Origin: Alcaligenaceae bacterium
GTDB taxonomy: Bacteria; Pseudomonadota; Gammaproteobacteria; Burkholderiales; Burkholderiaceae_B
Direction of reading: 5' to 3'
Assembly (NCBI GenBank): GCA_947379755.1
Contig: CANCOC010000038.1
Location: 1 to 32,504, forward strand
Length of the DNA stretch: 32,504 nucleotides
Below, in pieces: positions 13,798-30,744 of this stretch. The position numbers were made by a program, and so were the translations under genes. Below the pieces are notes generated by a model that was not told the DNA's origin, searched no databases, and saw nothing but the letters and a program-made list of their open reading frames with translations. How positions within the stretch are numbered: position 1 is the first letter of the stretch; each line of letters opens with the position of its first letter.

Positions 13798-13801
13798 CCT
13801 G

Positions 13802-14683
13802 ATGACACAAGCGACACTCTATCCAGGGGGCGAGATGGCGCAGGATGATCAGGCCGAACTCACCGCACTGCGCGCACGCGAAGAAAAGCGTCTGGCCCGG
13901 CGTGATCAGCTCCTGAGGATCATTGATCCCGCCGTGCCTGCATTGCTGGGCTGTCTGGGCTTTGCCTTGTTCATTTTGATCTGGCAAGGCATTCATCTGG
14001 GGATTAAAGAAATCCCATCTCCAGGCTTTACCCTGAATGCAGCAATCAAACTTTTCTCAGATCCGTTTTACTCCAATGGTCCCAACGACCAGGGGATCGG
14101 CTGGAACATCCTTTCATCTTTAAAACGCGTCGCGCTCGGCTTTGGTCTGGCCGCAATCGTTGGTATTCCCGTAGGGTTTGCCATCGGGCGCTTTCGCCTC
14201 TTTCAGGCCATGACGTCTCCGATCATTAATTTGTTGCGTCCCGTCTCTCCTCTTGCCTGGCTGCCGATCGGTTTGCTGTTATTCAAGGCGGCCAATCCAG
14301 CTGCCATCTGGTGCATTTTTATCTGCTCCATCTGGCCGATGGTGATTAACACCGCTGTGGGTGTCAGCAAGATCCCTCAGGATTACACAAACATTGCAAG
14401 GGTGCTGAATCTTTCAGAATGGAAAGTATTCACTAAAATTTTATTCCCGGCCACACTGCCCTACATGCTCACGGGTGTCCGTCTGTCTATTGGTACGGCC
14501 TGGCTTGTGATCGTCGCTGCAGAAATGCTGACCGGTGGCGTGGGAATCGGCTTCTGGTTATGGGATGAATGGAACAACCTGAAGGTTGAAAATATCATCA
14601 TCGCAATCTTTGTCATTGGCATTGTTGGCTTGCTGCTTGAGTACTGCATGCTGGCACTCGCCAGACGATTCACCTATTCCTGA
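13802..14683 (+). CDS. ntrB: Nitrate ABC transporter permease
   Basis: A 293-residue inner-membrane permease of the NrtB/SsuC/TauC type. A charged cytoplasmic N-terminus (about 45 residues, rich in Arg and Glu) is followed by about six hydrophobic helices. The segment NIARVLNLSEWKVFTKILFPATLPYMLTGVRLSIGTAW contains the EAA-like loop that contacts the ATPase, and the VAAEMLTGGVGIGFWLWDEWN stretch is characteristic of nitrate and sulfonate permeases. The ATG at 13802 begins 4 bp after the nrtA stop, with AAAGG inside the end of nrtA. It forms the channel of the importer with NrtA and the following ATPase. No defects are seen. Confidence 0.92.
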   Translation: MTQATLYPGGEMAQDDQAELTALRAREEKRLARRDQLLRIIDPAVPALLGCLGFALFILIWQGIHLGIKEIPSPGFTLNAAIKLFSDPFYSNGPNDQGIGWNILSSLKRVALGFGLAAIVGIPVGFAIGRFRLFQAMTSPIINLLRPVSPLAWLPIGLLLFKAANPAAIWCIFICSIWPMVINTAVGVSKIPQDYTNIARVLNLSEWKVFTKILFPATLPYMLTGVRLSIGTAWLVIVAAEMLTGGVGIGFWLWDEWNNLKVENIIIAIFVIGIVGLLLEYCMLALARRFTYS

Positions 14684-14696
14684 ACAGGCGGCCCAC

Positions 14697-15512
14697 ATGA
14701 CCAGCCCCCAATTCGACCGGTACCTGATGATTGAAGATGTGCAACAGACCTTCAAGACAAAGAAGGGTCCCTTTATTGCACTCAAAAATATCAATCTGAA
14801 TATTCGAAAAGGTGAGTTTGTTTCACTGATCGGCCATTCGGGCTGTGGCAAATCGACGTTACTCAATCTGATTGCCGGACTCACCATGCCGAGCGCAGGC
14901 CGACTGATCTGCGCAGGCCGGGAAATTGCGGGTCCGGGTCCAAGTCGTGCTGTCGTGTTTCAAAATCACTCATTGCTTCCATGGTTATCGTGTTTTGAGA
15001 ATGTATACCTGGGCGTTGAACGCGTATTTGCTGCGGGAGAATCAAAGAAACAGCTTCAGGAGCGAACCGCAGCAGCCATGGCACTCGTGGGTCTGACAGA
15101 ATCACAACACAAAATGCCACACGAAGTATCTGGCGGAATGAAGCAACGCGTAGGCATTGCACGGGCGCTGGCGATGGAGCCACAGGTGCTGCTGCTCGAC
15201 GAGCCCTTTGGCGCACTGGATGCGTTGACGCGTGCTAATTTGCAGGACGAGCTGATGAAGATCATGGCCGCGACCCAAAGCACCGCTGTCATGGTGACGC
15301 ATGATGTCGACGAAGCCGTGCTGTTGTCAGACCGCATCGTCATGATGACCAATGGCCCTGCCGCACAGATTGGTGAAGTCCTGGCTGTCGAACTGCCACG
15401 ACCACGTGATCGCGTTGAACTAGCAAACAACCAGCACTATCAGGACTACCGTACCGCAGTGATCGACTTCCTCTATCGCAAACAAGGCAAGCCTGCACTG
15501 GCTGCAGCCTGA
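14697..15512 (+). CDS. ntrD: Nitrate ABC transporter ATP-binding protein
   Basis: A 271-residue ABC ATPase. Walker A is GHSGCGKST at residues 46-54, the Q-loop is in VVFQNHSLLPW, the signature VSGGMKQRVG is at 144-153, Walker B is VLLLDEPFGALD at 164-175, and the switch histidine is H202 in VTHDVDEA. The PWLSCFENVYLGV segment is common to NrtD/SsuB/TauB-type subunits. The ATG at 14697 is chosen because it follows the permease stop by 13 bp and has AGGCGG upstream; earlier in-frame codons overlap the permease and lack homology. It powers nitrate import with the two preceding gene products. The fused NrtC regulatory domain of cyanobacteria is absent. Confidence 0.93.
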   Translation: MTSPQFDRYLMIEDVQQTFKTKKGPFIALKNINLNIRKGEFVSLIGHSGCGKSTLLNLIAGLTMPSAGRLICAGREIAGPGPSRAVVFQNHSLLPWLSCFENVYLGVERVFAAGESKKQLQERTAAAMALVGLTESQHKMPHEVSGGMKQRVGIARALAMEPQVLLLDEPFGALDALTRANLQDELMKIMAATQSTAVMVTHDVDEAVLLSDRIVMMTNGPAAQIGEVLAVELPRPRDRVELANNQHYQDYRTAVIDFLYRKQGKPALAAA

Positions 15513-15523
15513 CGGGATTCATC

Positions 15524-17965
15524 ATGAAAAAAATGAAACTGGTTTTGATTGGTAATGGCATGGCAGGCGTACGCACACTAGAAGAATTGCTCAAGATTGC
15601 ACCCGATCTGTACGAAATTACCGTGTTCGGCGCAGAGCCATATCCAAACTACAACCGTATCCTGCTTTCACCCGTGCTCTCGGGCGAACAGAATGTCGAA
15701 CAGATCATCCTGAATGATCTGGAGTGGTACGCCAAAAACAACATCACCTTGCACCTGAACAAAACGGTCGTCAAGATCGATCGCAAGGCGCGTGAAGTGC
15801 ATGCAGCAGATGGGACGATTGAGCCATATGACCGCCTGCTTCTGGCAACGGGCTCCCTGCCCTTTATCCTGCCAGTCCCCGGCAATGATTTGCCGGGAGT
15901 CATTGCCTATCGCGATATCAAAGATACCAACGAAATGATTGAGGCAGCGGCCTACCATACCCATGCGGTGGTGATCGGCGGAGGCTTGCTTGGACTGGAG
16001 GCTGCAAACGGTTTGCGGGTGCGCGGGATGCAGGTGACAGTCGTTCACCTGGCCGAGTGGCTGATGGATCGTCAACTAGATCTGATCGCGGCAAATCTGC
16101 TGCAAAAAAGCCTGGAGGATCGCGGCATCGTCTTCAGGCTCAAGACCCACACAGAGTCTTTGCTGCCCAATGCCCAAGGCACACGCGTGGGTAAAATCCG
16201 GTTTAAAGATGGCGAGGAAATACAGGCTGACCTAGTCGTCATGGCGGCGGGCATCCGACCCAATACCACACTCGCAGAGTCGGCCAGAATACATTGCTCG
16301 CGCGGCATCATCGTCAACGATACGATGCAGACTTTTGATCCGCTCGTGTATGCGGTCGGTGAATGCGTCAACCACCGTGGCTCTGTGTACGGACTGGTTG
16401 CACCGCTCTTTGAGCAGGCTAAAGTCTGCGCCAACCATCTGGCTGAATTCGGCATTGCGCGCTACTCGGGTTCTGTGACATCTACAAAACTGAAAGTCAC
16501 CGGCATCGACCTGTTTTCGGCTGGTAATTTCATGGGTGGTGAGGGCTGCGAAGAAATCACCTTGTCCGACCCACTGGCAGGTGTCTACAAAAAGCTCGTT
16601 GTTAAAGACGACAGACTTGTCGGTGCCTGTATCTATGGTGACACCGCAGATGGAACCTGGTATTTCAAACTGCTGCGCGAAGAAAAAAACATTGCCAGCA
16701 TCCGTGACTCACTGATATTTGGTGAATCAAATATTGGTGATGTCGGTCACGAAGGCCACAACAAAGCGGCCGCTATGCTGGATGCCGATGAGGTATGCGG
16801 CTGCAATGGCGTGAACAAGGGAAAAATTGTTCGTGCGATCAAGGATCAGGGACTGTTCACCCTCGAAGATGTGCGCAAGTGCACCAAAGCGAGCGCCTCG
16901 TGTGGCTCCTGTACAGGCCTGGTCGAACAGATCCTGATGAACTGCCTGGGTACCAGTTACTCCGAGACCCCAAAGAAAAAAGCCATCTGCGCCTGCACAG
17001 ATACCTCTCACGAAGATATTCGCATTGCAATTCGCGAGAACAGGTACCTCACGCAGGCCGAGGTGCGCGCGGGACTTGGCTGGAGAACACCCAGTGGATG
17101 TGCCAGTTGCCGACCTGCTCTGAATTACTACCTGATTTCGACCTGGCCCCATGAGGCAAAGGATGATCCGCAATCACGTTTTATCAACGAACGCGCCCAC
17201 GCTAACATTCAGAAAGATGGAACGTATTCAGTCATCCCCAGGATGTGGGGTGGGCTGACAAATGTCTCGGAACTTAGACGTATTGCGGATGTTGCTGAAA
17301 AATACAACGTCCCCACCGTCAAAGTCACGGGGGGGCAGCGCATTGATTTGCTGGGGATCAAAAAAGAGGATTTACCAGCCGTCTGGCATGATCTGGGAAT
17401 GCCTTCCGGACACGCCTATGGCAAATCGATCCGGACAGTCAAGACCTGTGTTGGCGCTGAACATTGTCGCTTTGGCACACAGCTCTCCATGGACATGGGC
17501 GTTGAACTCGAACGCATGCTCTTTGGCATGTACGCACCTCACAAGGTCAAGCTTGCAGTTTCAGGCTGTCCGCGCAATTGCGCCGAAGCCGGGATCAAAG
17601 ATGTCGGAGTCATCGGCGTGGATTCAGGCTGGGAAATTTATATCGCAGGCAATGGCGGGATCAAAACCGAAGTTGCCGAGTTTCTCTGCAAACTCAAGAC
17701 TGATGATGAGGTCAAAGAGTACTCCGGCGCATTTATCCAGTTATACAGGGAAGAAGGCTGGTATCTGGAGCGGACCGTTCATTATGTCCAGCGCGTAGGA
17801 ATCGACTACGTCAGACAACGCATTCTTGGGGATGCCTCAGGCCGCAGCGAGCTCTACCAGCGCCTGCTCTACGCGCTGAAAGACGCACCAGACCCCTGGA
17901 AAGACTTTGAACGTGCAGGCGTGGACCTGACGCAGTTTGAAAGCATTGCGCTGGCACCCCTTTGA
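15524..17965 (+). CDS. nirB: Assimilatory NAD(P)H nitrite reductase, large subunit
   Basis: An 813-residue siroheme enzyme that reduces nitrite to ammonium with six electrons. In order: an FAD/NAD(P)H pyridine-nucleotide reductase region (GNGMAG near residue 10 and VVIGGGLLGLEAANGL near 150), two BFD-like [2Fe-2S] modules with Cys pairs (starting near residue 425 with CGCNG and CGSC, then CAC and CASC near 490-530), and a ferredoxin-half/siroheme domain. The siroheme-[4Fe-4S] ligands are C642-x5-C648 and C682-x3-C686. Length is slightly below E. coli NirB (847) but complete. It lies 11 bp after the transporter ATPase and 16 bp before nirD, so NirB and NirD are made together. Confidence 0.95.
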   Translation: MKKMKLVLIGNGMAGVRTLEELLKIAPDLYEITVFGAEPYPNYNRILLSPVLSGEQNVEQIILNDLEWYAKNNITLHLNKTVVKIDRKAREVHAADGTIEPYDRLLLATGSLPFILPVPGNDLPGVIAYRDIKDTNEMIEAAAYHTHAVVIGGGLLGLEAANGLRVRGMQVTVVHLAEWLMDRQLDLIAANLLQKSLEDRGIVFRLKTHTESLLPNAQGTRVGKIRFKDGEEIQADLVVMAAGIRPNTTLAESARIHCSRGIIVNDTMQTFDPLVYAVGECVNHRGSVYGLVAPLFEQAKVCANHLAEFGIARYSGSVTSTKLKVTGIDLFSAGNFMGGEGCEEITLSDPLAGVYKKLVVKDDRLVGACIYGDTADGTWYFKLLREEKNIASIRDSLIFGESNIGDVGHEGHNKAAAMLDADEVCGCNGVNKGKIVRAIKDQGLFTLEDVRKCTKASASCGSCTGLVEQILMNCLGTSYSETPKKKAICACTDTSHEDIRIAIRENRYLTQAEVRAGLGWRTPSGCASCRPALNYYLISTWPHEAKDDPQSRFINERAHANIQKDGTYSVIPRMWGGLTNVSELRRIADVAEKYNVPTVKVTGGQRIDLLGIKKEDLPAVWHDLGMPSGHAYGKSIRTVKTCVGAEHCRFGTQLSMDMGVELERMLFGMYAPHKVKLAVSGCPRNCAEAGIKDVGVIGVDSGWEIYIAGNGGIKTEVAEFLCKLKTDDEVKEYSGAFIQLYREEGWYLERTVHYVQRVGIDYVRQRILGDASGRSELYQRLLYALKDAPDPWKDFERAGVDLTQFESIALAPL

Positions 17966-17981
17966 ACCACAGGACAACATC

Positions 17982-18317
17982 GTGCTCAATCAAAAATGGA
18001 TTTTAGTGACGACCAAAACCGAAATTCCGGTACTGGGTGCCCGTGTAGTGTCGGGCTCGCCAGCGGGTCCCATTGCCATATTCAAAACACTGGATGACAC
18101 TGTGTTTGCCTTACTGGATCATTGCCCCCATCAGGGTGGCCCGCTTTCACAGGGCATTGTCCATGGAAACTCGGTGACGTGCCCCATGCATGCATGGAAT
18201 ATCGGGCTGGAAGATGGCTGCGCCGTGTTGCCCGATGTGGGTTGTGCCCGCAGCTTTGCTGTGAAATGCGTGGGCGATGATATCTATTTGCAGCAGGACC
18301 AGCTGGCGGAGCCCTGA
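17982..18317 (+). CDS. nirD: Nitrite reductase small subunit with intact Rieske motif
   Basis: A 111-residue Rieske-like protein that partners NirB. The pattern C-P-H in DHCPHQGGPLSQG and C-P-M-H in VTCPMHAW gives the full Cys-x-His / Cys-x-x-His set that binds a [2Fe-2S] centre; in enterobacterial NirD these ligands are lost. A bound cluster is therefore likely here and may carry electrons within the NirBD complex. The start is GTG at 17982, with AGGA (17971-17974) 7 nt upstream; an earlier TTG would overlap nirB. Its TGA shares an A with the nasA ATG (TGATG), indicating translational coupling. Confidence 0.92.
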   Translation: MLNQKWILVTTKTEIPVLGARVVSGSPAGPIAIFKTLDDTVFALLDHCPHQGGPLSQGIVHGNSVTCPMHAWNIGLEDGCAVLPDVGCARSFAVKCVGDDIYLQQDQLAEP

Positions 18318-21166
18318 TGCAAACCAGCACCACACAGACACGCCAGACCCGCACGACCTGTTGCTACTGTGGTGTCGGATGTGGCATGCTGGTTCAAACA
18401 GAATCGACAGGCGAGCATATTCGCATCAAGAGCGTTCAGGGCGACCCGGACCACCCTGCCAATATGGGTCAGTTGTGCTCTAAAGGCTCAACACTCGGAC
18501 TGACCGCACAGCCACACCTCTATGAACAATCACGTGCAAAATTTCCAGAGCTGCGCCGGCACAAAGACAGCCCAAGAAAACGCGTTAGCTGGGATCAGGC
18601 CTGTGAGACGGTCGCCCAGCGCTTTGCAGAGATCATTGCCGAACACGGCCCCGATTCTGTTGGCCTGTATGTCTCGGGCCAGTTATTGACTGAAGACTAT
18701 TACGTCTTTAACAAACTCGCAAAAGGCCTGATTGGCACAAACAATATCGATACCAATTCGCGCCTGTGCATGTCCAGTGCGGTGGCTGGTTACAAACAAA
18801 GCTTTGGCGCGGATGCTCCGCCATGCAGCTACACAGACATCGAGCAGGCTGCGACAATTTTTATCACTGGGTCAAACACCGCCTACGCGCACCCGATTCT
18901 TTTCAGGAGGATTGAGGCTGCCAGACAAAAGAATCCTGCTCTCAAACTCATCGTGGTGGATCCCAGGCGTACCGATACCGCAAGTATGGCAGATCTGTTT
19001 TTGCAGATTCTGCCCGGTACAGATGTTGCGCTATATCACGGCATGTTGCACATCATGCTCTGGGAAGGCTGGATTGCACAACCCTATATCGATACGCATA
19101 CAGAAGGCTTTGCTGCACTCAAGACCTTGATCCGGGACTACACACCCAAAGCTGTCGCTGAAATTTGTGGCATCACAGAAGCAGACCTTACCGAAGCCGC
19201 CAGACTCTTTGCCTGTTCGCCCGCGACCCTCTCTCTGTACTGCCAGGGACTGAACCAGTCCTCATCAGGTACAGACAAGAACACCGCACTGATTAATTTG
19301 CACCTCGCCTGTGCGCAACTTGGCAAGCCAGGCGCAGGACCATTTTCCCTGACTGGTCAGCCCAATGCCATGGGTGGCAGGGAAGTGGGCGGCCTGGCTA
19401 ATCTGCTGTCGGCGCACCGCGATATGAAAAACCCCGAGCACCGTCAGGAAGTGGCCGATTTATGGGGGATTCCAACTGTGCCTGCACTGCCTGGCCTGAC
19501 AGCGATTCCAATGTTTGAAGCGCTTGCCGCGGGCACACTCAAAGCTATCTGGATTGTCTGCACCAACCCTGCACAATCGCTTCCCGATCAAACGATGGTT
19601 CATGCAGCGCTTGCGGGTGCAGAGTTTGTGGTGGTCCAGGATGCCTACGCCCATACGGCCACGACCGCCTATGCAGACGTGCTCTTGCCCGCCACGACAT
19701 GGGCCGAAAAAGAAGGCACCGTCACAAATTCAGAAAGACGCATTTCCAGAGTGCGTGCCGCACTGCCTGCTTTTGCAGAATCCAGAAATGACTGGGAAAT
19801 TGCACTGGACGTCGCACGACGCCTTGAAACCCTTATGCACGCTGGCTCTCAGAGCATCTGGCATTCTTTGTTTAATTTTACCGATGCACAATCCGTCTGG
19901 GAAGAGCACCGCGCGACAACGCGTAAACGCGACCTGGACATCACCGGCCTGAGCTATCAAATTCTGGAACAGCAAGGTCCGCAGCAGTGGCCGTACCCGC
20001 AAGGTGCCTCGACAGGTACAACACGTCTCTACACAGATGGGCTGTTCGTCACACCCTCACAACGCGCACGATTCACCGCAGCGCCCTATCGTGCAACCTC
20101 GGAACGCACCGATGCGCGCTATCCCATTGGTCTGACCACGGGTCGGCTGCGCGATCAATGGCATGGCATGAGCCGAACCGGCACACTGGCACGTCTACAG
20201 GCTCACGCGCCTTCGCCCAGCGTAGATATTTCACCGCTGGATGCACGCCGTCTCAGCCTCACCGACGGGGAACTGGTTTACGTCACCTCAAGACGGGGCG
20301 TACAAATCCTGCCAGTCAGAATGACGGATAGCATCCGGCCATCACAGGCATTTATTGCCATGCACTGGGGCGCCGAATGTGTCTCGGGCCATGCTGGAAA
20401 ATCAGTCGCCCGAGGCGTCAATAGTCTGACCATCGCAGCGATCGATCCAGTGTCTGAACAGCCTGAACTCAAATTTGCCGCAGTCAAAATTACCAAGGCA
20501 AATTTGCCATGGTATTTGTATGCCTTTGCCTGGATGCCCGCTGACCAGGCCGTTCGACTTCAGATTGAGCTCAGGGAGTTATTCGATCAGGCAAGCTTTG
20601 TCACTGCAACGATATTTGGGCGTGACGAAATGACGTCCAAAAATGGTCAGATGGAAACAGGTTTAAGCCTCACGATGGCAAATACCGAAGCCTTTAGTGA
20701 AGCCTTGCTCAGACAGATTCAATTGATTTTCAATGCCTACACAACAGGAGAACAGTCCTCCTTATCTTTTCGCGATTCACGCCACAACAGCCAGCGCGAC
20801 CTGTCCATTACCCACACCCAGACTGAAAAATACATTTCAAGTGTCCTGCTCACAGGGGCAGGCAAGGATGTCGCTGCCGAGGTCTGGCTCAGAAACTATC
20901 TCGAAAACCAGAAAGACATCACCGCCCTGGGCCGGCGCCTGCTGATGCCGGGTCACATCCCCCCGGAACCAATGCTTGCAAGAGGCCGGATGATCTGCAA
21001 CTGCTTTAATATTTCAGAAGATACAATTCGGGCTCATTTAGCACTTGCTCCCACTCTAGAAAAAGATCTTGCCTTGCAATCTCTTCAAACCTCTCTGTCA
21101 TGCGGTACTAGTTGTGGCTCCTGCCTGCCTGAAATTAAAGCCATGATCGCCTCAAATGTCCATTAG
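18317..21166 (+). CDS. nasA: Assimilatory nitrate reductase catalytic subunit with C-terminal BFD-like domain
   Basis: A 949-residue cytoplasmic molybdenum-bisMGD enzyme reducing nitrate to nitrite. The N-terminal [4Fe-4S] ligands are C15-x2-C18-x3-C22 and C54. Molybdopterin-family segments follow: GLYVSGQLLTEDYYVFNKL, NIDTNSRLCMSSAVAGYKQSFG, CQGLNQSSSGTDKN and TGQPNAMGGREVGGLANLL, then a dinucleotide-binding C-terminal domain (TTGRLRDQWHGMSRTG). The last 58 residues are a BFD-like [2Fe-2S] module with C894, C896, C929, C933 and an adjacent C936. This NasA type lacks a separate FAD subunit gene in the operon, so the electron donor is an open question. It is coupled to nirD by a TGATG overlap, with GGAG 5 nt before the ATG. 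Confidence 0.95.
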   Translation: MQTSTTQTRQTRTTCCYCGVGCGMLVQTESTGEHIRIKSVQGDPDHPANMGQLCSKGSTLGLTAQPHLYEQSRAKFPELRRHKDSPRKRVSWDQACETVAQRFAEIIAEHGPDSVGLYVSGQLLTEDYYVFNKLAKGLIGTNNIDTNSRLCMSSAVAGYKQSFGADAPPCSYTDIEQAATIFITGSNTAYAHPILFRRIEAARQKNPALKLIVVDPRRTDTASMADLFLQILPGTDVALYHGMLHIMLWEGWIAQPYIDTHTEGFAALKTLIRDYTPKAVAEICGITEADLTEAARLFACSPATLSLYCQGLNQSSSGTDKNTALINLHLACAQLGKPGAGPFSLTGQPNAMGGREVGGLANLLSAHRDMKNPEHRQEVADLWGIPTVPALPGLTAIPMFEALAAGTLKAIWIVCTNPAQSLPDQTMVHAALAGAEFVVVQDAYAHTATTAYADVLLPATTWAEKEGTVTNSERRISRVRAALPAFAESRNDWEIALDVARRLETLMHAGSQSIWHSLFNFTDAQSVWEEHRATTRKRDLDITGLSYQILEQQGPQQWPYPQGASTGTTRLYTDGLFVTPSQRARFTAAPYRATSERTDARYPIGLTTGRLRDQWHGMSRTGTLARLQAHAPSPSVDISPLDARRLSLTDGELVYVTSRRGVQILPVRMTDSIRPSQAFIAMHWGAECVSGHAGKSVARGVNSLTIAAIDPVSEQPELKFAAVKITKANLPWYLYAFAWMPADQAVRLQIELRELFDQASFVTATIFGRDEMTSKNGQMETGLSLTMANTEAFSEALLRQIQLIFNAYTTGEQSSLSFRDSRHNSQRDLSITHTQTEKYISSVLLTGAGKDVAAEVWLRNYLENQKDITALGRRLLMPGHIPPEPMLARGRMICNCFNISEDTIRAHLALAPTLEKDLALQSLQTSLSCGTSCGSCLPEIKAMIASNVH

Positions 21167-22502: not shown

Positions 22503-23471
22503 TTACCTGATGACTTTTTTCCAGGCAGACAGCTCGTCGGACAGGGTTTGCGCAAAAGCAGCTGGAGGTTCTGATAATGGAGTCGCGCCCTCGTTGAGCA
22601 ATCTGTCTTTGAGACTGGGCGTGACATCCCGGATAACCTGGTTCAGCGCATCGACCATAGCGACTGGCGTTGCGGCCGGTGCCAGAATGCCCCACCAGGT
22701 TGACACGTCAAACTGTTTCAAACCAGATTCCATAACAGTAGGGGTCTCTGGATACATCGCCGAGCGCACGCGCGAAGTAACTGCCAGCACATTTACTTTA
22801 TGGTCATTCACATGCGCGCGAATAGTCGGGACGGTTGCAAAAAAAACTTGCGTTCGACCCGCGAGCAAATCCAGTGTGGCCGGACCACTGCCTTTGTAGG
22901 GCACGTGTGTCATCGTAATGCCAGCCGACTGTGCAAAGAGTTCTGCCGCGAGATGATTGATACTTCCAGGTCCCGCTGAGCAGTATGTCAATGTGCCGGG
23001 ATCTTTTTTGGCCGCAGCAATCAACTGCTCAATTGTGAGGATGCCGGAGGCTTTGGAGGATACAACCAGCAGGGGGCCACGTCCGAGTATTGCAACCGGC
23101 GCAAAGTCTTTGACCGGGTCGTAAGATGGCGCAGGATCAGAGGCTGCATGCGTAATAAATGTCGAGGTCGCAAACAGTAATGTGGCGCCGTCAGGCACGG
23201 CACGCGCCACGCCCACCGCGGCAATTGCGCCCCCTGCTCCACCCTTGTTATCAACAATCACCGTAGCACCCAATCGCGTCGACAAGTCCCTGGCGAGTTC
23301 GCGCGCGATACTGTCTGTCCCGCCCCCAGGAACAAAAGGCACGACCAGCGTGACAGGTTTACGCCTGAGATCAGGAGTTTGTGCAAAACAGGGCGTGATA
23401 CCAAGGTAAGAGCCTGCCGATGCAACCGAGGCAATTGCACCCGAAATCAGTACCTGGCGACGGCGCATCAT
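22503..23471 (-). CDS. Bug/TctC-family substrate-binding protein (second copy)
   Basis: A 322-residue periplasmic binding protein with an N-terminal twin-arginine-like signal (MMRRRQVLISGAIASVAS, cleavage near CFAQ). Mature landmarks are VTLVVPFVPGGGTDSIAR, IVDNKGGAGG, VARAVPDGATLLFA and HVPYKGSGPATLDLLAGR, all of the Bug family. Its ATG shares bases with the stop of the upstream dehydrogenase gene (TGATG), so the two are translationally coupled. As in the other Bug locus, no TctA or TctB permease gene is present. It is only distantly similar to the 9220-10221 paralogue outside the family motifs, so a different ligand is likely. It is the last gene of the minus-strand cluster and presumably binds the compound that the cluster metabolises. 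Confidence 0.92.
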   Translation of the reverse strand: MMRRRQVLISGAIASVASAGSYLGITPCFAQTPDLRRKPVTLVVPFVPGGGTDSIARELARDLSTRLGATVIVDNKGGAGGAIAAVGVARAVPDGATLLFATSTFITHAASDPAPSYDPVKDFAPVAILGRGPLLVVSSKASGILTIEQLIAAAKKDPGTLTYCSAGPGSINHLAAELFAQSAGITMTHVPYKGSGPATLDLLAGRTQVFFATVPTIRAHVNDHKVNVLAVTSRVRSAMYPETPTVMESGLKQFDVSTWWGILAPAATPVAMVDALNQVIRDVTPSLKDRLLNEGATPLSEPPAAFAQTLSDELSAWKKVIR

Positions 23472-24532
23472 CAGAGCGTCTGCAGATACGCAGCAAGCGC
23501 TTGTCCCGTTTCTTTGGTTCCCAGTCGCCCACCGACATCACGCGTGGCTTGCCCCGCAGCAATCGCCTGTGCGACGGCATCGTTCAGGGCATGGCTGGCC
23601 TGAATAAAAGCAGGCAGCTTTTTACGCTGACCGTACCAGGCCAGCAGCATGCCAGCCGAAATCACCTGCGAGAAGGGATTCGCTTTGTTCTGACCAGCAA
23701 TATCGGGCGCCGAACCGTGTGCGGCCTGAGCCATCCCGTAATCGGTTCCGGCATTGATCGAAGCCGCCATTCCCAGACTGCCAGCAAGTTCGGCCGTCAG
23801 GTCTGACAAAATATCGCCAAACATATTTGTTGTCACAATCACGTCATACCGTTCAGGCGCACGCACAACGTGCGCCATCATGGCATCGACAATCACATCG
23901 TCAACCACGACATCCGGGAATTCACGACCCACGGCATGGCAGGCATCGATAAACATGCCATCACCTATTCTCAGCACGTTTGCCTTATGCACGATCGTCA
24001 CATGCTTTTTGCGCGTCATGGCCAGCTCAAAAGCCGAGCGTGCGATCCGCTCACAGCAATGACGCGTAATGCGTCGCAGCGATACAACGACATCTGGCGT
24101 GATCAGCATTTCGCTGCCACCTGACTCGATATTACGGTCAGCGTAAAAGCCTTCCGTGTTTTCGCGAACGACGACAAGATCCAGCGGTTTATGTTGTGTT
24201 CCGCTACCAGGATATGTTTTTGCCGGACGAATATTGGCAAACAAATCCAGACTCTTTCTAAAAAACTTCGAAGGATTGATTTCACCCTTTGATTCATCTT
24301 TAAAGTCGTAGGTGGACATGGGACCAAGAATCAGCCCATCGGCACTTTTTACTGAGGCAAGTAATCCCTCATGAATTGTTGTGCCGTATTTTTTCAGGCT
24401 GTCATGACCGGCGATATCGTGATGCAGATCCAGACCGAGCTTGAATTTTTCTGAAATGATTTCGAGCGCCTGCGTGGCAACGGCCATGGTCTCAGGACCA
24501 ATGCCATCACCGGGAATGACGATAATTTTCAT
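23471..24532 (-). CDS. Isocitrate/isopropylmalate-family beta-decarboxylating dehydrogenase
   Basis: A 353-residue NAD(P)-dependent oxidative decarboxylase of 2-hydroxy acids. It starts IIVIPGDGIGPE, has substrate arginines in FFRKSLDLFANIRPAK (R92, R102), the VRENTEGFYADRN motif at 122-134 that sets substrate choice, catalytic Lys183, metal-binding Asp216, Asp240 and Asp244, and the nucleotide motif AHGSAPDIAGQNKANP from residue 271. The RENTEGFYADR wording differs from LeuB (RELTGGIYFG type) and from classical NADP isocitrate dehydrogenase, so the substrate may be tartrate, D-malate or another malate derivative. It is coupled to the Bug gene and lies 42 bp after the cupin gene. Length is normal and nothing appears broken. 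Confidence 0.88.
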   Translation of the reverse strand: MKIIVIPGDGIGPETMAVATQALEIISEKFKLGLDLHHDIAGHDSLKKYGTTIHEGLLASVKSADGLILGPMSTYDFKDESKGEINPSKFFRKSLDLFANIRPAKTYPGSGTQHKPLDLVVVRENTEGFYADRNIESGGSEMLITPDVVVSLRRITRHCCERIARSAFELAMTRKKHVTIVHKANVLRIGDGMFIDACHAVGREFPDVVVDDVIVDAMMAHVVRAPERYDVIVTTNMFGDILSDLTAELAGSLGMAASINAGTDYGMAQAAHGSAPDIAGQNKANPFSQVISAGMLLAWYGQRKKLPAFIQASHALNDAVAQAIAAGQATRDVGGRLGTKETGQALAAYLQTL

Positions 24533-24574
24533 TTTTATACTTATTAAGTGTGAGGTGACCTGCGCGCTAAAAAT

Positions 24575-24949
24575 TTAGTCTGGCATTGCAATGGTTTCAA
24601 ACTGGCCTGGCAAAACGATTTCCAGCATTTCGAGGTCCTCCGAGTGCGCAATCTCGCGGTGACGGATCCCTGGCGGCTGGTGGACACAGGTACCTGCGAC
24701 CAACTTGTGCTCACCGTGCCCTTCGTATTCGAAAATAGCCCAGCCCTTCAGGACATACACCAGCTGCATCTGAATCTCGTGACGGTGCCATTCGCCAGTC
24801 GCCTCTGTACCGGTATGGGCATGAATCAGATGCATGACCGCTTTGCCATCGGTCGCCTCCATAATGCCGAGATCACGGTAGTCAAAATATTGCCGCAAAC
24901 CATCGTGCGAAAAGGGGACATCCCTGGCATGCTGAATACTGAATTTCAT
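24575..24949 (-). CDS. Single-domain cupin protein
   Basis: A 124-residue beta-barrel protein. Cupin motif 1 is GEWHRHEIQMQLVYVLKG with His55 and His57; the usual Glu four residues later is a Gln. Motif 2 is HQPPGIRHREI with His97. These three histidines can hold a divalent metal, so it may be an isomerase, dioxygenase or small-molecule sensor; the family does not fix the function. GGAG lies 5 nt before the ATG at 24949. It sits between the rubredoxin-reductase fusion (44 bp upstream) and the dehydrogenase (42 bp downstream) on the same strand, so it is very likely part of the same transcript. Confidence 0.82.
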   Translation of the reverse strand: MKFSIQHARDVPFSHDGLRQYFDYRDLGIMEATDGKAVMHLIHAHTGTEATGEWHRHEIQMQLVYVLKGWAIFEYEGHGEHKLVAGTCVHQPPGIRHREIAHSEDLEMLEIVLPGQFETIAMPD

Positions 24950-24993
24950 GTCATCTCCATTATTTTATTTTTATCATACGCCATGGAAATGTA

Positions 24994-26322
24994 TCACCCG
25001 ATTTCGAGTGAGGCAACAGTCGTGCCCCCAAAGGACTGCTGCATCCGGAGCTTTGCCGGGTCGTCTTGCATCACCTGCCACAGCCCTGCTGTAACAGGCA
25101 GACCATGAAGGACCACAGGGATGGACTTTGTTTTCAGGCGAATCACCGGCTGCGTATGGGCATACCCTGCATAAGGAATATTCAGGATCGCGTGCGCAAT
25201 TGCCTGGGCCTGTTTAGAAATGGGTTCAATAAAACGGCAAGGTGCACCCTCGATGCTGACACAGTCGCCCAACGCATAGACCTGGCTGGCACTGGTTTGC
25301 AACGTGGAGGGGTCCACTGCAATGCCTCTGTCCAGCGCAAGGCCGGCACCCGAGGCCAGACGCGTATCGGTCACGAGCCCAGTCGCTGCAACCACTTCAT
25401 CCGCAACAAACTGCCGTGCGCATTGCGTCCAGACGCGCTTGCTACCATCCGGATTGAGCGCAACACCCAGCACCTGCACCGATCCCACAACAGTCACACC
25501 TGCCTTCTCAAGGCCTGCGCGTAAGCGTGCAGAGCCCTGCGGCGGGAGCAGCGTGGCCAGTGGCTGAGACTGGACATCCAGCAAGGTGACCTGATGCCCA
25601 GCCCGTGCAAAATCATCAGCAAGTTCGCAGCCAACCATTCCGGCACCAACAATCACAATCCGCTTGGGACCCTGCTGGATTTTTTGTTTCAAGCCTGACC
25701 AGCCAGCCAGATCGTTGATGCGCCAGCAAAGCTGGGGGGGCAAACATGCAGGCAACGCAGGTCGTGCACCCATCGCAATCACCAGACTGGTGAATGACAA
25801 GGTGCCGCGGGTCGTGCGTAACTGATGCAGGACGGGACTCAGTCCCACTGCAAAGGTATCAGGTAACAAACGCACACCAAGCCTGAGCGCCGCATGAACA
25901 CCGGTTTCGCGCACAAGTGACTCGCGTGTGGCGCCGCGCGATATTGCAATAGACAATTCGGGCTTGAGGTAACGATCACCCTCACAGGCCGTCACAATCG
26001 TAATCGGCAATCCGGCATCCAGGGCACGCAAGGCTTCTGCCGCGGCCCAGCCAGCATGACCTGCTCCGACAATCACGACGCCCAGACCACGTGCGACATG
26101 CGACGCACCAGTCAGCAGGCTTGGGCCAGCGACTGCGACGGCCGCGTGGTCGTAGGGTTCAAAATCAGCCTTGACGACGCCACATAATGGGCAGACCCAG
26201 TCTTCGGGTATATCTTCGAAACGTGTACCGGGTGCGATGCCGCTGTCGGGATCGCCAGCCTGTTCGTCATAAATCAGGCCGCAGGCGCGACAGATAAACT
26301 GCTTCCATTGAACCTGGCTCAT
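24994..26322 (-). CDS. Rubredoxin-FAD/NAD(P)H oxidoreductase fusion (rubredoxin reductase-like)
   Basis: A 442-residue two-part protein. Residues 1-55 are a rubredoxin with the iron ligands C11-x2-C14 and C44-x2-C47 and the typical [22 protein letters not shown] stretch. After a short linker comes a pyridine-nucleotide-disulfide-type reductase: FAD motif [10 protein letters not shown] at about 82-91, NAD(P)H motif [14 protein letters not shown] at about 222-235, and VYALGDC near 348-354 closing the FAD site. It should pass electrons from NAD(P)H through FAD to its own rubredoxin. Free-standing relatives serve alkane hydroxylases, flavorubredoxin or superoxide reductase; none is visible here. 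It overlaps the flavoprotein gene before it by 4 bp (ATGA), pointing to that protein as its partner. Confidence 0.9.
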
Positions 26323-27458
26323 GCAGGCATTTCCTGCCTGGACAATCGTGCCATTTCCCAGCGCAGATGCTTGATTGCGGGCGTCACAATCGCGACAAAA
26401 TGGGCCTCGCGGATCCGGCGCTGCGGTGCCGTATTCATCATGTAGCCGCGGGCGCCCTGATGGAGCAAGGCAGACTGGGAGGCTCTGAGGACAAACTCGG
26501 CGCTTTGCGCACGAGCATCCAGCACCTCAATCAGATAATCATTGCTGCCGTCATAAGGCGTAAGGGCCAGTCGCGAGATCCGTGTGGCCAGATCGTCGTA
26601 TTCTGCCTGCAATGTGTCCGGCCTGTCATGCAAAAACTGATTGACGTGGCCAAGCAGAGGTTCGACTTCGAGGATCGAATCTATACTGCCCTGCGCCACA
26701 CCCAGTGCCCAGCCGGTCTGCAGCAAAATAAATGCCGCGCGGACTTTTGCGATGAAGGGCTTTGCTGGGTCTGCAATGATATTGTCCTCGCTGATGAACG
26801 TGTCATCCATGCGAATACCCCAGGTGCTGGTACCTTCCATGCCAGAAAACTCGGGACACTGACGCAATACAACTTCTTCGGTACAGCGCAGCAAAAACAT
26901 GATTTCGTGGGAGGTGCTGCCATCCTCGCGGCATACGCCTGCAATGGCACCGCAGTACTGACCCGGTGCAATGTGACTGACCCAGGGCAGCGCACCGCTG
27001 ACGCGATAGCCACCCGGTACTTTTTTGGCACGCAGCAACATTTTTTCAATGCCAGCAAACGACTTCATCGGGTTCGAAAGTGCAGTCCCCCCAAAGGTTG
27101 CTGCCATGGCATGCTGCTCAAGGACCTGTCCAGTCAGGGCCGGGTTGCCGGACTGCTCCAGGTACAGGCCACAGACATCATGGCACCAGGTCAGAAAACC
27201 TGTTGACCCGCAGTTGCGGCTGATCGCACGCATGGACTCAATCGCCAGGCCAAACCGTGTGCCATTGCGATCAAGGTGTGCAGAAAATGCACCTGCCTGA
27301 CCCAGTTCGCGCATGATATCGAGTGGATAATGCCCGGCATGGTCGATGCGGTAGGCCGCCTCAGCCAGACAACGATTCGAAATATCCGTAACGCTCTGGA
27401 GCACAGCGTCGATACTTGTTGAATTCGAAACTTCAGACACTGCATCCACTGGATTCAT
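26319..27458 (-). CDS. Acyl-CoA-dehydrogenase-fold flavoprotein, possibly a flavin monooxygenase
   Basis: A 379-residue protein with the ACAD fold: an N-terminal helical domain, a beta domain around [20 protein letters not shown] and [15 protein letters not shown], and a C-terminal four-helix domain ending in [21 protein letters not shown]. In true acyl-CoA dehydrogenases this last region carries the catalytic Glu in an IYEGT motif; here it reads VAIVTPA, so that base is missing. The pattern suits DszC/HpaB-like flavin monooxygenases or other side branches of the family. I start at ATG 27458; an open frame extends to 27605, but the extra 49 residues run through the upstream gene and lack family character. 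The ATGA overlap with the rubredoxin-reductase gene suggests functional coupling. The substrate is unknown. Confidence 0.8.
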
Positions 27459-27495
27459 ACACACGCTCTGATTCAGAAACACATATAAAAAAAAA

Positions 27496-28050
27496 TTAAT
27501 CAGCCAGCCCGATATCAAAGGCAATAGGATTACGCATTGAATTGGCGACGGGTGAATACATGTTGGCATGACGCACGATTTCATCGAGGACTTCACGCGA
27601 AGCATCGCCTTCTACAACCACCTTGACACGAATCGCCTGAAAACCCATCTGTGCAGGCTGCATGTCTGCGCCGCCCGCACCCCAGGCTGCAGGGTTTCCG
27701 ATATCGCCTTCAAGGAATAATTCGAGCTTACTGAGTTTGACTTGCTTCCAGGTGGCCACGGCAGTGATGCCAACAGACAGGCAACCACCAAGCGCACACA
27801 GCACCATTTCACCTGGAGCAGGCGCAGTATCCTCGCCAAACAGGTGAGGTGGTTCATCGACTACGACCGGAGCATGGTTGCCGACGTAGTTCAATGTGCG
27901 GTACTGACCCTCAGTCACGGTATGTACTTTGTTGGTCCCACGGCGGGTGGGGTCTGCACGGCCTTTCTCTGCAAAACCCATCAGACCATCGCGATCGATC
28001 GGACGCAAATAGGCTTTGACTGTTGTAGGGGTTGCGTTGCTGGTGCTCAT
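27496..28050 (-). CDS. OsmC-family protein lacking the second catalytic cysteine
   Basis: A 184-residue OsmC/Ohr-superfamily protein. The core helix reads APGEMVLCALGGCLSVGITAVAT, with Cys85 and Cys90, the latter at the usual first-cysteine position. The second redox cysteine, normally in a CPV or CPxS motif, is replaced: the segment reads HANMYSPVANSMRNP with Ser166. A thiol peroxidase cycle as in Ohr is therefore unlikely, and a role with sulfur compounds, thioesters or electrophiles is more open. A good ribosome-binding site (CGGAGT) precedes the ATG at 28050. It is followed 37 bp later by the ACAD-like gene and preceded by the Ldh-type gene, with a 75-bp gap that could hold an extra promoter (TAGATAAT near 28068-28075 on this strand). 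Confidence 0.85.
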   Translation of the reverse strand: MSTSNATPTTVKAYLRPIDRDGLMGFAEKGRADPTRRGTNKVHTVTEGQYRTLNYVGNHAPVVVDEPPHLFGEDTAPAPGEMVLCALGGCLSVGITAVATWKQVKLSKLELFLEGDIGNPAAWGAGGADMQPAQMGFQAIRVKVVVEGDASREVLDEIVRHANMYSPVANSMRNPIAFDIGLAD

Positions 28051-28125
28051 GATGGACTCCGTTGATTTAAAAATTATCTAGTATGTCAGGACTATTTTAA
28101 GCGATGGTTATGACTACCCGGCGAG

Positions 28126-29202
28126 CTAAAAAGGCAGCAAGGAACCAACCCCTGCCTCATTGGCCACCCGTGCCACATCAGACAGCGTATCAATCGGCAG
28201 CAATAGCCCTTTACTGCGGTTGTCGGTATCCGCCAGTTTTTCCATTTCACCAGGATAAAACACCTGATCATGGCCCTCTGCAAGTGGAACATCCTTGAGC
28301 GAAGTCAAATACTCATCCATGCGCGCATGGAACGCGTTGAGCGGCTGAAAAGCCGCAACATTCAGTGCCACCATGAAGTGACCGGCACCACTGCGATTGA
28401 CCGGATCATACGGGCCATGGACCTTGTCCAGGAACTGGCTACCTGACAGCACACCCGAGAGAATATCCACCATTGTGCCCATGACATAGCCTTTGTGGCC
28501 TGCCATCGGCAGGATAAAGCCTTCGAGAGCAGCTTTGGGATCCGTTGTGGGGCGCCCCAGCGCATCGACCGCCCAATGCGAAGGGATGCTCTCGCGACGC
28601 TTGTCTGCCAGATAAATCTTGCCGCGCGCCACACCCGAGTTCGCCATGTCCATGACCACTGGTCCGTAGCTCCCACCTGGCACTGCAATTGACCAGGGAT
28701 TGGTGCCGATCTTTTTCTTCAGGCCACCCCAGGGAGCCATGTTTGGGCCCGCATTACTCATGAGCACCATTACACAACCCTGCTGCGCGCCAATCCGGGT
28801 GTAATACATGCAGGTGCCAAAATGATTCGAGTTCCGCACGGACACAACACCCACACCATGCTTCTGTGCACGCGTGACAGCCTCATCGACCGCGCGTCGC
28901 GCGATGACCTGGCCCAGCCCGTCGTGCCCGTCCATGACCGCCACTGCACCTGCATCGACTTCGAGAGTCGTCTGTGTTAAAGCCTGCATCGCACCGGATT
29001 GCAGACGGGCGTAATACCAGCCCAGACGCAACAGCCCGTGGGACTGATGACCCCAGAGGTCTGCCTGCACCAGGGTGTCTGCAGCGAGCCAGGCATCCTG
29101 TTCAGGCACACCAATGCTGCGATATACCGCTGCAGCCACCTCCTGCAAACGTACAGGGTCAATTCTGTTGCCCATGACTTGCTGCGATTCTGTCTCACGC
29201 AT
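28126..29202 (-). CDS. Ldh-family (malate/L-lactate/ureidoglycolate-type) NAD(P)-dependent oxidoreductase
   Basis: A 358-residue member of the Ldh_2 family (YlbC/ComC/AllD/DlgD type), which is unrelated to classical LDH and acts on 2-hydroxy or 2-keto acids. The catalytic region is GHQSHGLLRLG with His52 and His55, then VRNSNHFGTCMYYT (His127), TNPWSIAVPG for cofactor binding and GHKGYVMGTMVDILSGVLSG. The start at ATG 29202 has AAGAG just upstream and gives normal length; another ATG at 29175 is possible. An open frame upstream to 29361 crosses an inverted repeat and has no family similarity. It heads the minus-strand cluster and is divergent from an OFA-type transporter; the substrate is probably a hydroxy or keto acid imported by that transporter or captured by the Bug protein. 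Confidence 0.88.
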   Translation of the reverse strand: MRETESQQVMGNRIDPVRLQEVAAAVYRSIGVPEQDAWLAADTLVQADLWGHQSHGLLRLGWYYARLQSGAMQALTQTTLEVDAGAVAVMDGHDGLGQVIARRAVDEAVTRAQKHGVGVVSVRNSNHFGTCMYYTRIGAQQGCVMVLMSNAGPNMAPWGGLKKKIGTNPWSIAVPGGSYGPVVMDMANSGVARGKIYLADKRRESIPSHWAVDALGRPTTDPKAALEGFILPMAGHKGYVMGTMVDILSGVLSGSQFLDKVHGPYDPVNRSGAGHFMVALNVAAFQPLNAFHARMDEYLTSLKDVPLAEGHDQVFYPGEMEKLADTDNRSKGLLLPIDTLSDVARVANEAGVGSLLPF

Positions 29203-29417: not shown

Positions 29418-29472
29418 TGGCATGTTTATTGCTGTTCGCCTGCTATCGAATAAAGTTCTTCTGGAGATACTG

Positions 29473-30744
29473 ATGACCGCTTCCTCAATTGCTGCGCACC
29501 CTGCTGCGGGTCAAACCAGCTTTCTGAAATCAAAGTGGGTGCAGTTGCTGCTTGGCATGATTTGCATGATGGCAATTTCAAGTCCGCAATATGTATGGGC
29601 ACTCTTTACTAAACCTTTGCTCGGTGAGCTGGGAGTGGAGCTGGCCACTCTCCAGGTTACCTTTTCAATACTGATTGTGCTGCAAACATTCTTTTCACCG
29701 TTTCAGGGATACCTGGTTGACCGCTTTGGTGCGCGCGTCCTGCTGTCGATCGGCGCCATTCTGACGGGTTTGAGCTGGGTACTGTCTGCCAAAGTGCATA
29801 GCGTGATGGGAATATATTTAACCTATGGCCTGCTGGGCGGATTAGGAACCGGCATCGTCTACATCGGGATTGTAGGATTGATGGTGCGCTGGTTTCCCAC
29901 TTCGCGTGGCTTTGCCGTGGGCATGGTTGCGGCGGGCTATGGCATTGGTGCGATTCTCACGACCTTCCCGATTTCTTCCACGCTTGCTGCCTCTGGTTAT
30001 CAGCACACACTGACCGTTTTCGGCTACATCATCGGTGCGGTTGGCCTGATCGCTGCACAGGGTTTGAGAATGCCAGATGTGATTCGAAACGCTGTCAGCA
30101 AAAAAATTGCTCAGGCCGAGCTTGGTGTCACGCCAAAAGTCATGCTCAAGACGCCGATATTCTGGCTGATGTTTGCAATGATGACCATGATGTCAACTTC
30201 TGGTCTGATGGTGATTTCACAAATGGGTGCCTTTGCCAAGGATTTCGGCATCACCAATGCGATGGTCTGGGGCATGGCTGCACTGCCGCTGGCGCTTACG
30301 ATTGACCGGTTTACGAATGGCCTGACACGACCATTTTTTGGCTGGATTTCTGACCGCTACGGTCGCGAGAACACCATGTTCATCGCGTTTGGCCTCGAAG
30401 CCATCGCCATGACATGCTGGCTGTATTTCCGTAACGACCCCGTCATGTTTGTATTGTTATCCGGCATTGTATTTTTTGGCTGGGGTGAGATTTTCTCTCT
30501 GTTTCCTTCCACACTCACCGATACGTTTGGCCCAAAACATGCAACGACCAATTATGGTTTTCTGTATATGGCACAAGGCATCGGATCCATCCTGGGAGGC
30601 CCGATTGCCGCGCTGGTCTACACAGGTTTTGGTAGCTGGATACCCGTCTTTGGGCTGATGATCGGCCTGGATGCCACGGCAGCATTGCTGGCCTTGTTTG
30701 TACTCAAGCCCATGCGTGTCAGCTATCTGAATAAGTCGATCTAA
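29473..30744 (+). CDS. OFA-family (oxalate/formate antiporter-like) MFS transporter
   Basis: A 423-residue major facilitator with about 12 transmembrane helices. The loop 2-3 signature is GYLVDRFGARVL, the repeat in the second half is GWISDRYGRENTM, and QYVWALFTKPLLGELGVELATLQVTFSI in helix 1-2 is typical of OxlT-like OFA proteins, as is GLLGGLGTGIVYIGIVGLMVRWFP. The start ATG 29473 has GGAGA (29463-29467) 5 nt upstream; a longer frame to 29401 begins in the promoter region. Family members move small mono- and dicarboxylates (oxalate, formate, lactate, pyruvate). Divergence from the hydroxy-acid dehydrogenase cluster suggests that it imports that cluster's substrate. The ligand itself is not determined, and OxlT function should not be assumed. 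Confidence 0.88.
   Translation: MTASSIAAHPAAGQTSFLKSKWVQLLLGMICMMAISSPQYVWALFTKPLLGELGVELATLQVTFSILIVLQTFFSPFQGYLVDRFGARVLLSIGAILTGLSWVLSAKVHSVMGIYLTYGLLGGLGTGIVYIGIVGLMVRWFPTSRGFAVGMVAAGYGIGAILTTFPISSTLAASGYQHTLTVFGYIIGAVGLIAAQGLRMPDVIRNAVSKKIAQAELGVTPKVMLKTPIFWLMFAMMTMMSTSGLMVISQMGAFAKDFGITNAMVWGMAALPLALTIDRFTNGLTRPFFGWISDRYGRENTMFIAFGLEAIAMTCWLYFRNDPVMFVLLSGIVFFGWGEIFSLFPSTLTDTFGPKHATTNYGFLYMAQGIGSILGGPIAALVYTGFGSWIPVFGLMIGLDATAALLALFVLKPMRVSYLNKSI

Follow-up and report, generated by a model that had tools for sequence, protein, structure and literature searches.

The window analysed here, a 32,504-nucleotide contig of an Alcaligenaceae bacterium (CANCOC010000038.1), carries on its minus strand three adjoining genes for a one-cysteine OsmC-like protein, a flavoprotein of the acyl-CoA dehydrogenase (ACAD) fold and a fused rubredoxin reductase (RdxR). 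This OsmC-ACAD-RdxR triad is a conserved unit, and it is the only part of the surrounding gene run found to be conserved beyond the Alcaligenaceae kin of the window. Given that it recurs together with a cyanase (CynS), an importer of the CynABD type, a sigma54 activator and enzymes of sulfane-sulfur metabolism, it is suggested that the triad serves nitrogen acquisition via cyanate, and we put at about one in two the probability that it carries out the oxidative first stage of a pathway in which thiocyanate is converted to cyanate and sulfane sulfur. The initial annotation had suggested organic-acid catabolism for the run, which these partners do not support as its core; its notion that the fused reductase supplies an oxygenation or sulfur-removal step agrees with the make-up of the triad, the members of which are:

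27496-28050, minus strand: one-cysteine OsmC-like protein (PF02566, 68.6 bits), proposed sulfur acceptor or carrier
26319-27458, minus strand: ACAD-fold flavoprotein (PF02771, a weak match of 24.5 bits with a cut-off of 22.9), proposed oxygenase
24994-26322, minus strand: RdxR, a fusion of rubredoxin and a NorW-like FAD/NAD(P)H reductase (PF00301, 76 bits; Pyr_redox_2, 151 bits), proposed electron donor

The mechanical open reading frame (ORF) of the ACAD-like gene begins at 27605, overlapping the OsmC gene; the start at 27458 agrees with alignments. RdxR scores 228 bits with NorW (PRK04965), under the cut-off of 392.

The conserved unit and its neighbours

When plasmids were searched by tblastn, the ACAD-like protein gave 60 records, and eight regions were examined. 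On Marinobacter and Acetobacter plasmids an OsmC-ACAD-FAD/rubredoxin reductase set adjoins an ABC importer and a cyanase, and in Caballeronia the triad lies with an importer, a cyanase and, in addition, a metallo-beta-lactamase-fold protein resembling persulfide dioxygenase (PDO). The named loci used for counting are the best 80 with record titles from a profile search of genome contigs, made with an alignment of nine relatives, and neighbours were scored by phmmer (E <= 1e-15, 60 bits) within 9.5 kb; the counts vary with these cut-offs, the loci themselves were found through ACAD, and sulfur genes and sigma54 activators were counted with seed proteins that came from ACAD loci. OsmC is found near ACAD in 78 of the 80 loci and RdxR in 74, which bears out the co-occurrence that the initial annotation had expected, and the OsmC gene lies directly upstream of ACAD on the same strand in 73 of the 78 OsmC-bearing loci. 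A sigma54 activator is near in 58 loci, CynA in 56, CynS in 46 (47 by the less strict blastp label), PDO in 26, a rhodanese in 18 and TauE in 13, with any one of these last three sulfur genes in 40.

Two loci give the arrangement in full: L117 reads sigma54-OsmC-ACAD-RdxR-CynABD-CynS-TauE-PDO, and L181 reads ABC importer-OsmC-ACAD-rhodanese-CynS. Among the reference proteins, the PDO of L060 scores 334 bits with the dioxygenase part of Blh, for which the cut-off of 625 applies to the two-domain protein; the TauE of L061 scores 138 bits, the rhodanese of L048 119 bits, and the sigma54 activator of L006 is NifA-like at 441 bits, below the cut-off. The binding proteins beside the module are of two kinds, both of the NMT1_2 family, and their SsuA-family scores lie below cut-off. 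A sigma54-like box precedes OsmC in 60 of 84 loci, compared with 6% in mononucleotide shuffles. A family of 165-residue ORFs (28 loci), with no Pfam or NCBIfam match, overlaps the sigma54 activator gene in loci examined later and was set aside as a shadow ORF.

Forms of the module lie on plasmids at L006, L007, L008, L009 and L011, three of which (L006, L007 and L009) PLSDB classes as conjugative. The small 46 kb plasmid of Synechococcus elongatus bears a distant homologue of ACAD, with 27% identity. The 2.17 Mb Neisseria gonorrhoeae records NZ_CP119140.1 and NZ_CP119142.1 are filed as plasmids and have a chromosome-like size.

Association with cyanase and sulfur genes

The cyanase link of the triad is strong. 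Of the 33 best-80 loci at which the blastp label gives no local CynS, 29 have cynS elsewhere in the genome, giving 76 of 80 genomes in total; the elsewhere-search was given 34 genomes and was positive in 30, L034 among them, and one match (G007) is a 31-residue fragment. Across 399 genomes of the window's order, ACAD (at E <= 1e-60) is present in 33, cynS in 90 and both in 19, such that cynS occurs in 19/33 genomes with ACAD and 71/366 without it (p 5e-6). Within the 249 genomes of Methylorubrum's order the corresponding figures are 11/12 and 46/237 (p 4e-7), and both p-values treat related genomes as independent and are therefore too small. As a control, 40 cynS loci were taken, from 40 of the 71 genomes of the window's order that have cynS and lack ACAD. 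Five of these control loci (L122, L136, L143, L144 and L156) are cut by contig ends, and the control loci span fewer classes than the best-80 loci; CynA is present in 24 of them, and neither sulfur genes nor sigma54 activators are present in any of the 40. At betaproteobacterial loci with local CynS, a subset picked from record titles, sulfur genes are found in 14 of 21 compared with 0/40 controls (p 5e-9). In the sample of the window's order, sulfur genes are rarer, at 4 of an initial 20 ACAD loci, and three of 12 loci fetched later (L166, L169 and L171) have a rhodanese in addition.

The combination of a cyanase with sulfane-sulfur enzymes points to a substrate containing S, C and N, of which thiocyanate is the simplest, and the substrate, as judged from these neighbours, is probably thiocyanate or a close S-C-N compound. 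The nitrate-assimilation block that stands beside the gene run in the window also counts in favour of a role in nitrogen supply.

It may be, instead, that a different S-C-N substrate (an isothiocyanate, a thiocarbamate, a thiourea-like compound or an organic thiocyanate) is split to cyanate and sulfane sulfur, given that the gene set requires just C-N and S, that two kinds of binding protein occur with the module, and that an OFA-family transporter stands beside it in the window, L015 and L019. However, importers of the NrtA/CynA type are the most frequent (56/80), and no carbon-skeleton gene is recurrent beyond the kin among the named families present in at least six loci, for which reasons such a substrate is considered unlikely, if still worth keeping in mind. 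An enzyme making cyanate from cyanide, with the ACAD-fold flavoprotein as a cyanide oxygenase and the rhodanese and PDO as side protection, is improbable for different reasons. Its cyanate would suit CynS equally and rhodaneses use cyanide, but HCN needs no anion importer, and the persulfide dioxygenase (26/80) and TauE (13/80) found near the module are not needed for cyanide. Passages of PMC11049912 describe such an oxygenase as proposed and not experimentally demonstrated, and the triad is also a candidate for that cyanide monooxygenase; against this, Pseudomonas pseudoalcaligenes CECT5344 is described, in passages of PMC6627978, as growing on cyanide without needing cyanase.

The triad proteins and a proposed mechanism

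Two proteins of the triad depart from their families at catalytic positions. Cys90 and Ser166 of OsmC are kept in all 115 aligned homologues, and Ser166 falls in the alignment column of the second Escherichia coli OsmC Cys, leaving only the first of the two catalytic cysteines of an OsmC/Ohr peroxidase. The AF2 model of the ACAD-like protein (pLDDT 90.8) has the fold of a short-chain acyl-CoA dehydrogenase (TM ~0.8), and its first 50 structural matches are acyl-CoA dehydrogenases with TM values of 0.70-0.83 and identities of 15-21%. Nevertheless, the column of the dehydrogenase catalytic Glu, a residue in the YEGT region of the short-chain enzymes, is occupied by Thr359 (Thr in 130 and Ser in one of 131 sequences). 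Trp159, Ser161, His333 and Arg316 are invariant (131/131), the first two being presumably residues of the flavin pocket. A retained fold, a kept Trp/Ser pair and a lost catalytic Glu make up the anatomy of an ACAD-fold flavin monooxygenase, and the protein is proposed to be a putative flavin oxygenase; it weakly matches 3-sulfinopropionyl-CoA desulfinase, at 26.7 bits against a cut-off of 600, and HsaA, at 24.6 against 450. In RdxR, a pair of CxxCG motifs is present in 85 of 86 sequences.

Taken with the neighbouring genes, these features suggest a possible sequence of events. NADH would reduce the flavin of RdxR, the rubredoxin domain of which would hand electrons to the ACAD-fold flavoprotein; the reduced flavoprotein would then activate O2 and oxygenate the sulfur of thiocyanate. 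The single Cys90 of OsmC may capture the activated sulfur as a protein persulfide, with release of cyanate, such that the overall reaction would be SCN- + O2 + NADH + H+ + RSH -> OCN- + RSSH + NAD+ + H2O. CynS would convert the cyanate to NH3 and CO2, while the rhodanese and persulfide dioxygenase would carry the sulfane sulfur to sulfite, for export by TauE. If this is correct, an oxidative module that works in the cytosol and is linked to cyanase would explain the source of cyanate in some heterotrophs, and a function would be given to genes named merely 'OsmC family' and 'acyl-CoA dehydrogenase family'.

It could be argued that the one-cysteine OsmC and the flavoprotein have no substrate-oxidising role and form a stress module, detoxifying peroxides or thiol adducts that arise from cyanate use: cyanate and persulfide are reactive, and thiol-redox folds are shared by OsmC and the AhpD-like CMD protein found in its place elsewhere. 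This has a low probability for two reasons: first, 71 of the 90 cynS-positive genomes of the window's order lack such an ACAD at E <= 1e-60, so that cyanate use itself does not need it. Second, the second OsmC cysteine expected for peroxidase chemistry is gone. A nitroalkane-oxidase-like or sulfonate desulfonation role was dropped as it would leave the cyanase unexplained.

Sister forms of the module

In the window's order, the 33 genomes with ACAD comprise 21 with the OsmC type, the window included, 11 with a type in which the AhpD-like CMD protein takes the place of OsmC, and one in which the locus is cut by a contig end. Since cynS is present in 18 of the 21 OsmC-type genomes and in 0 of the 11 with the CMD type (p 3e-6), it is the OsmC type that is linked to cyanate. 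The CMD form is seen at L008, L013, L084, L108-L111, L113, L116, L120, L162, L167, L172 and L173, and the CxxC motif of the CMD protein is present in 14/14; as none of the 11 CMD-type genomes of the order sample has cynS, this form may have another product or role. A CMD-ACAD pair without a labelled importer or reductase is seen in Neisseria (L013) and close relatives. In Methylorubrum's order, eight of ten fetched loci are OsmC-ACAD-rhodanese without RdxR, and this alphaproteobacterial form, with the rhodanese after ACAD and no RdxR, is represented by L009, L012 and L179-L186. Its neighbours include a separate FAD-dependent oxidoreductase (L012, L179 and L180) and a DsbA-like protein (L009 and L179).

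The gene run in the window and its lineage

The triad lies within a minus-strand run of seven genes at 22503-29202, in the order Ldh_2, OsmC, ACAD-like, rubredoxin-reductase, cupin, Iso_dh and TctC/Bug, facing a divergent OFA transporter. The other features of the window are:

28126-29202, minus strand: Ldh_2 malate/lactate-type dehydrogenase (PF02615, 383 bits)
24575-24949, minus strand: small cupin (PF07883, 37 bits)
23471-24532, minus strand: Iso_dh, a beta-decarboxylating dehydrogenase (IDH) of the IDH/IPMDH/tartrate-DH superfamily (PF00180, 294 bits)
22503-23471, minus strand: TctC/Bug binding protein (PF03401, 204 bits)
29418-29433, plus strand: sigma54 -24/-12-like element 5' of the OFA gene, matching 11 of 12 positions of a consensus
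29473-30744, plus strand: divergent OFA-family MFS transporter (TIGR04259, 415 bits, cut-off 335)
12526-21166, plus strand: nitrate-assimilation block with an NrtABC-type ABC importer, NirB and a NasA-like reductase, given as context

The intergenic gaps within the run, computed from the coordinates, are 75, 37, 44 and 42 bp, and there are two overlaps, of 4 bp at ACAD/RdxR and of 1 bp at IDH/Bug. The extent of the run, the gaps of at most 75 bp and the gene identities given in the initial annotation hold, the last by Pfam, and the run it described is real; its reading of the run as one cluster is not sustained, as only the triad is kept as a unit beyond the kin. Co-conservation, on which that reading depended, is found for the triad, fails for Bug and largely fails for Ldh, IDH and cupin, and the earlier view of the run is thus partly supported. 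Iso_dh scores under the cut-off for all 18 NCBIfam families listed, and the window's genome has five PF02615 genes, the Ldh_2 of the run included. A terminator-like hairpin (28156-28136) at the Ldh end and a promoter-like match (28100-28073) come from scans whose totals are close to those of shuffles (8 vs 6.8 and 7 vs 4.6). The start of the OFA gene, assigned by reading the sequence, is the ATG at 29473. Sigma54-like elements similar to that in the window precede OFA in the kin loci L015 and L019, and OFA may be nitrogen-regulated in the window's lineage. Within the nitrate block, NrtA, NrtB and NrtC are identified at 37%, 44% and 51% identity, and the NCBIfam scores for ntrB (254 bits), ntrCD (342) and NirB (927) are all above cut-off; NasA-like scores fall below cut-offs, and the gene at 12526-13797 has no NCBIfam match at 1e-20.

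In a tree of ACAD, the bootstrap of which is not settled, the window groups with its 11 kin loci and 12 other rows, and this 24-row set has support of 99/99. The Ldh/cupin/IDH context of the window is most simply regarded as derived, since 10 of the 12 non-kin rows of this set carry CynS in the locus. Within the kin, some loci of which end at contig ends, Ldh is near the triad in 10/11 (in L017 it is about 6.5 kb away), a cupin is labelled in 9/11 and IDH in 7/11. The Bug protein is not conserved with the module: its relatives near kin are at most 38% identical (34-38% at L014, L019 and L022), and one near L073 is 32% identical. As Bug is not conserved and IDH is confined to the kin, both were dropped as pathway parts. 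Although the single strand, the small gaps and these kin counts would suit a seven-gene organic-acid operon, in which an imported hydroxy acid is attacked by the flavoprotein and then processed by the two dehydrogenases, this is very improbable, given that no cupin, no IDH and one Ldh of 35% identity (L070) were labelled in the other 69 named loci, that Bug is not conserved, that a PF00144 hydrolase gene precedes Ldh in both kin checked (L014 and L022), and that a sigma54-like box stands before OsmC in 8 of 11 kin loci. The genome of the window itself encodes CynABDS, and with it both the CynABD importer and the CynS of a cynFABDS system, on contig C102 and a TauE-PDO pair on contig C8; beside the module in the window no sigma54 activator or CynS is labelled.

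Points against the thiocyanate pathway

Several observations weigh against conversion of thiocyanate to cyanate by the triad. In the window's own lineage, CynS is nearby in no kin locus and sulfur genes are near 0/11; the motif scan gave no sigma54 box before OsmC in the window, unlike most of its kin; and the rhodanese of the module was not found in the window's genome at E <= 1e-20 and is present in 5/12 genomes, with PDO in 8/12, the window's own included. More widely, sulfur genes are near just half of the best 80 loci and near 4 of the initial 20 ACAD loci sampled in the window's order; cynS is absent in 4 of 80 genomes, all metagenome-assembled by title, and within the order sample from 3 of 21 OsmC-type and all 11 CMD-type genomes. 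RdxR is unlabelled in several distant cyanase-linked loci, and is thus not essential to the core reaction.

A further such point comes from Methylorubrum thiocyanatum, which carries the module (L047) and is, to our knowledge, the only module-bearing organism with a thiocyanate phenotype: the title of Wood et al. 1998 reportedly has it growing on thiocyanate or cyanate as nitrogen source. A thiocyanate hydrolase gamma gene (TIGR03887, 360 bits against a cut-off of 291) is present in the genome as well, together with a gene resembling nitrile hydratase (NHase) beta on a 3 kb contig (L189, genome G019), and the phenotype therefore cannot decide the substrate and was dropped as support for it. PF02979 (nitrile hydratase alpha / thiocyanate hydrolase gamma) is found in 11/11 genomes, namely the window's own, nine kin and M. 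thiocyanatum, and naming of the NHase-type genes by NCBIfam covers four loci (the window's own, G001, G011 and G019). The single match in the window's genome scores 153 bits with TIGR03887 and 243 with nitrile hydratase alpha (cut-off 250), so that it falls short of a hydrolase gamma, and two kin copies are also below the thiocyanate hydrolase cut-off; a thiocyanate hydrolase is possible in other kin.

Comparison with known systems

Two enzymatic routes for thiocyanate, a hydrolase and a copper dehydrogenase, are described in PMC5328954 and PMC5778177. The hydrolase would share the substrate of the proposed pathway; however, it has the NHase fold and releases COS and ammonia with no cyanate, as described in part of PMC5778177. 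The copper thiocyanate dehydrogenase (TcDH), which belongs to the cyanate pathway of sulfur oxidisers, would share the conversion of thiocyanate to cyanate and sulfane sulfur, and a sigma54 regulator is reported near it, as with the module, but passages of PMC6504805 and PMC5778177 (the regulator in the former) place it in the periplasm with cytochrome c, whereas the module consists of a flavoprotein, a thiol protein and a rubredoxin reductase. It is suggested, tentatively and at somewhat less than even odds, that an ACAD-fold oxygenase, a rubredoxin reductase and a one-cysteine OsmC make up a third, aerobic and flavin-dependent thiocyanate system from which many heterotrophic Proteobacteria gain nitrogen. 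Within the parts of the open-licence PMC literature consulted, no account linking OsmC, ACAD or rubredoxin to the use of cyanate or thiocyanate was recognised, and one may be in print elsewhere.

The cynFABDS system of P. pseudoalcaligenes CECT5344 has the same kinds of part, a sigma54 activator, a CynABD importer and CynS, that accompany the module elsewhere. The paper on it (PMC6627978, in part) uses neither 'acyl-CoA' nor 'rubredoxin', and the passages at hand make no mention of OsmC; the module would add an oxidative step before cyanate. With the OsmC/Ohr thiol peroxidases the OsmC of the triad has in common the family and the first catalytic cysteine, and it differs from them in having Ser in place of the second. 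HsaA and 3-sulfinopropionyl-CoA desulfinase likewise have the ACAD fold without dehydrogenase chemistry, and DszC is another ACAD-fold flavin monooxygenase. Such monooxygenases pair with a flavin reductase, whereas the ACAD-like protein of the module is paired with a one-cysteine OsmC and a rubredoxin reductase.

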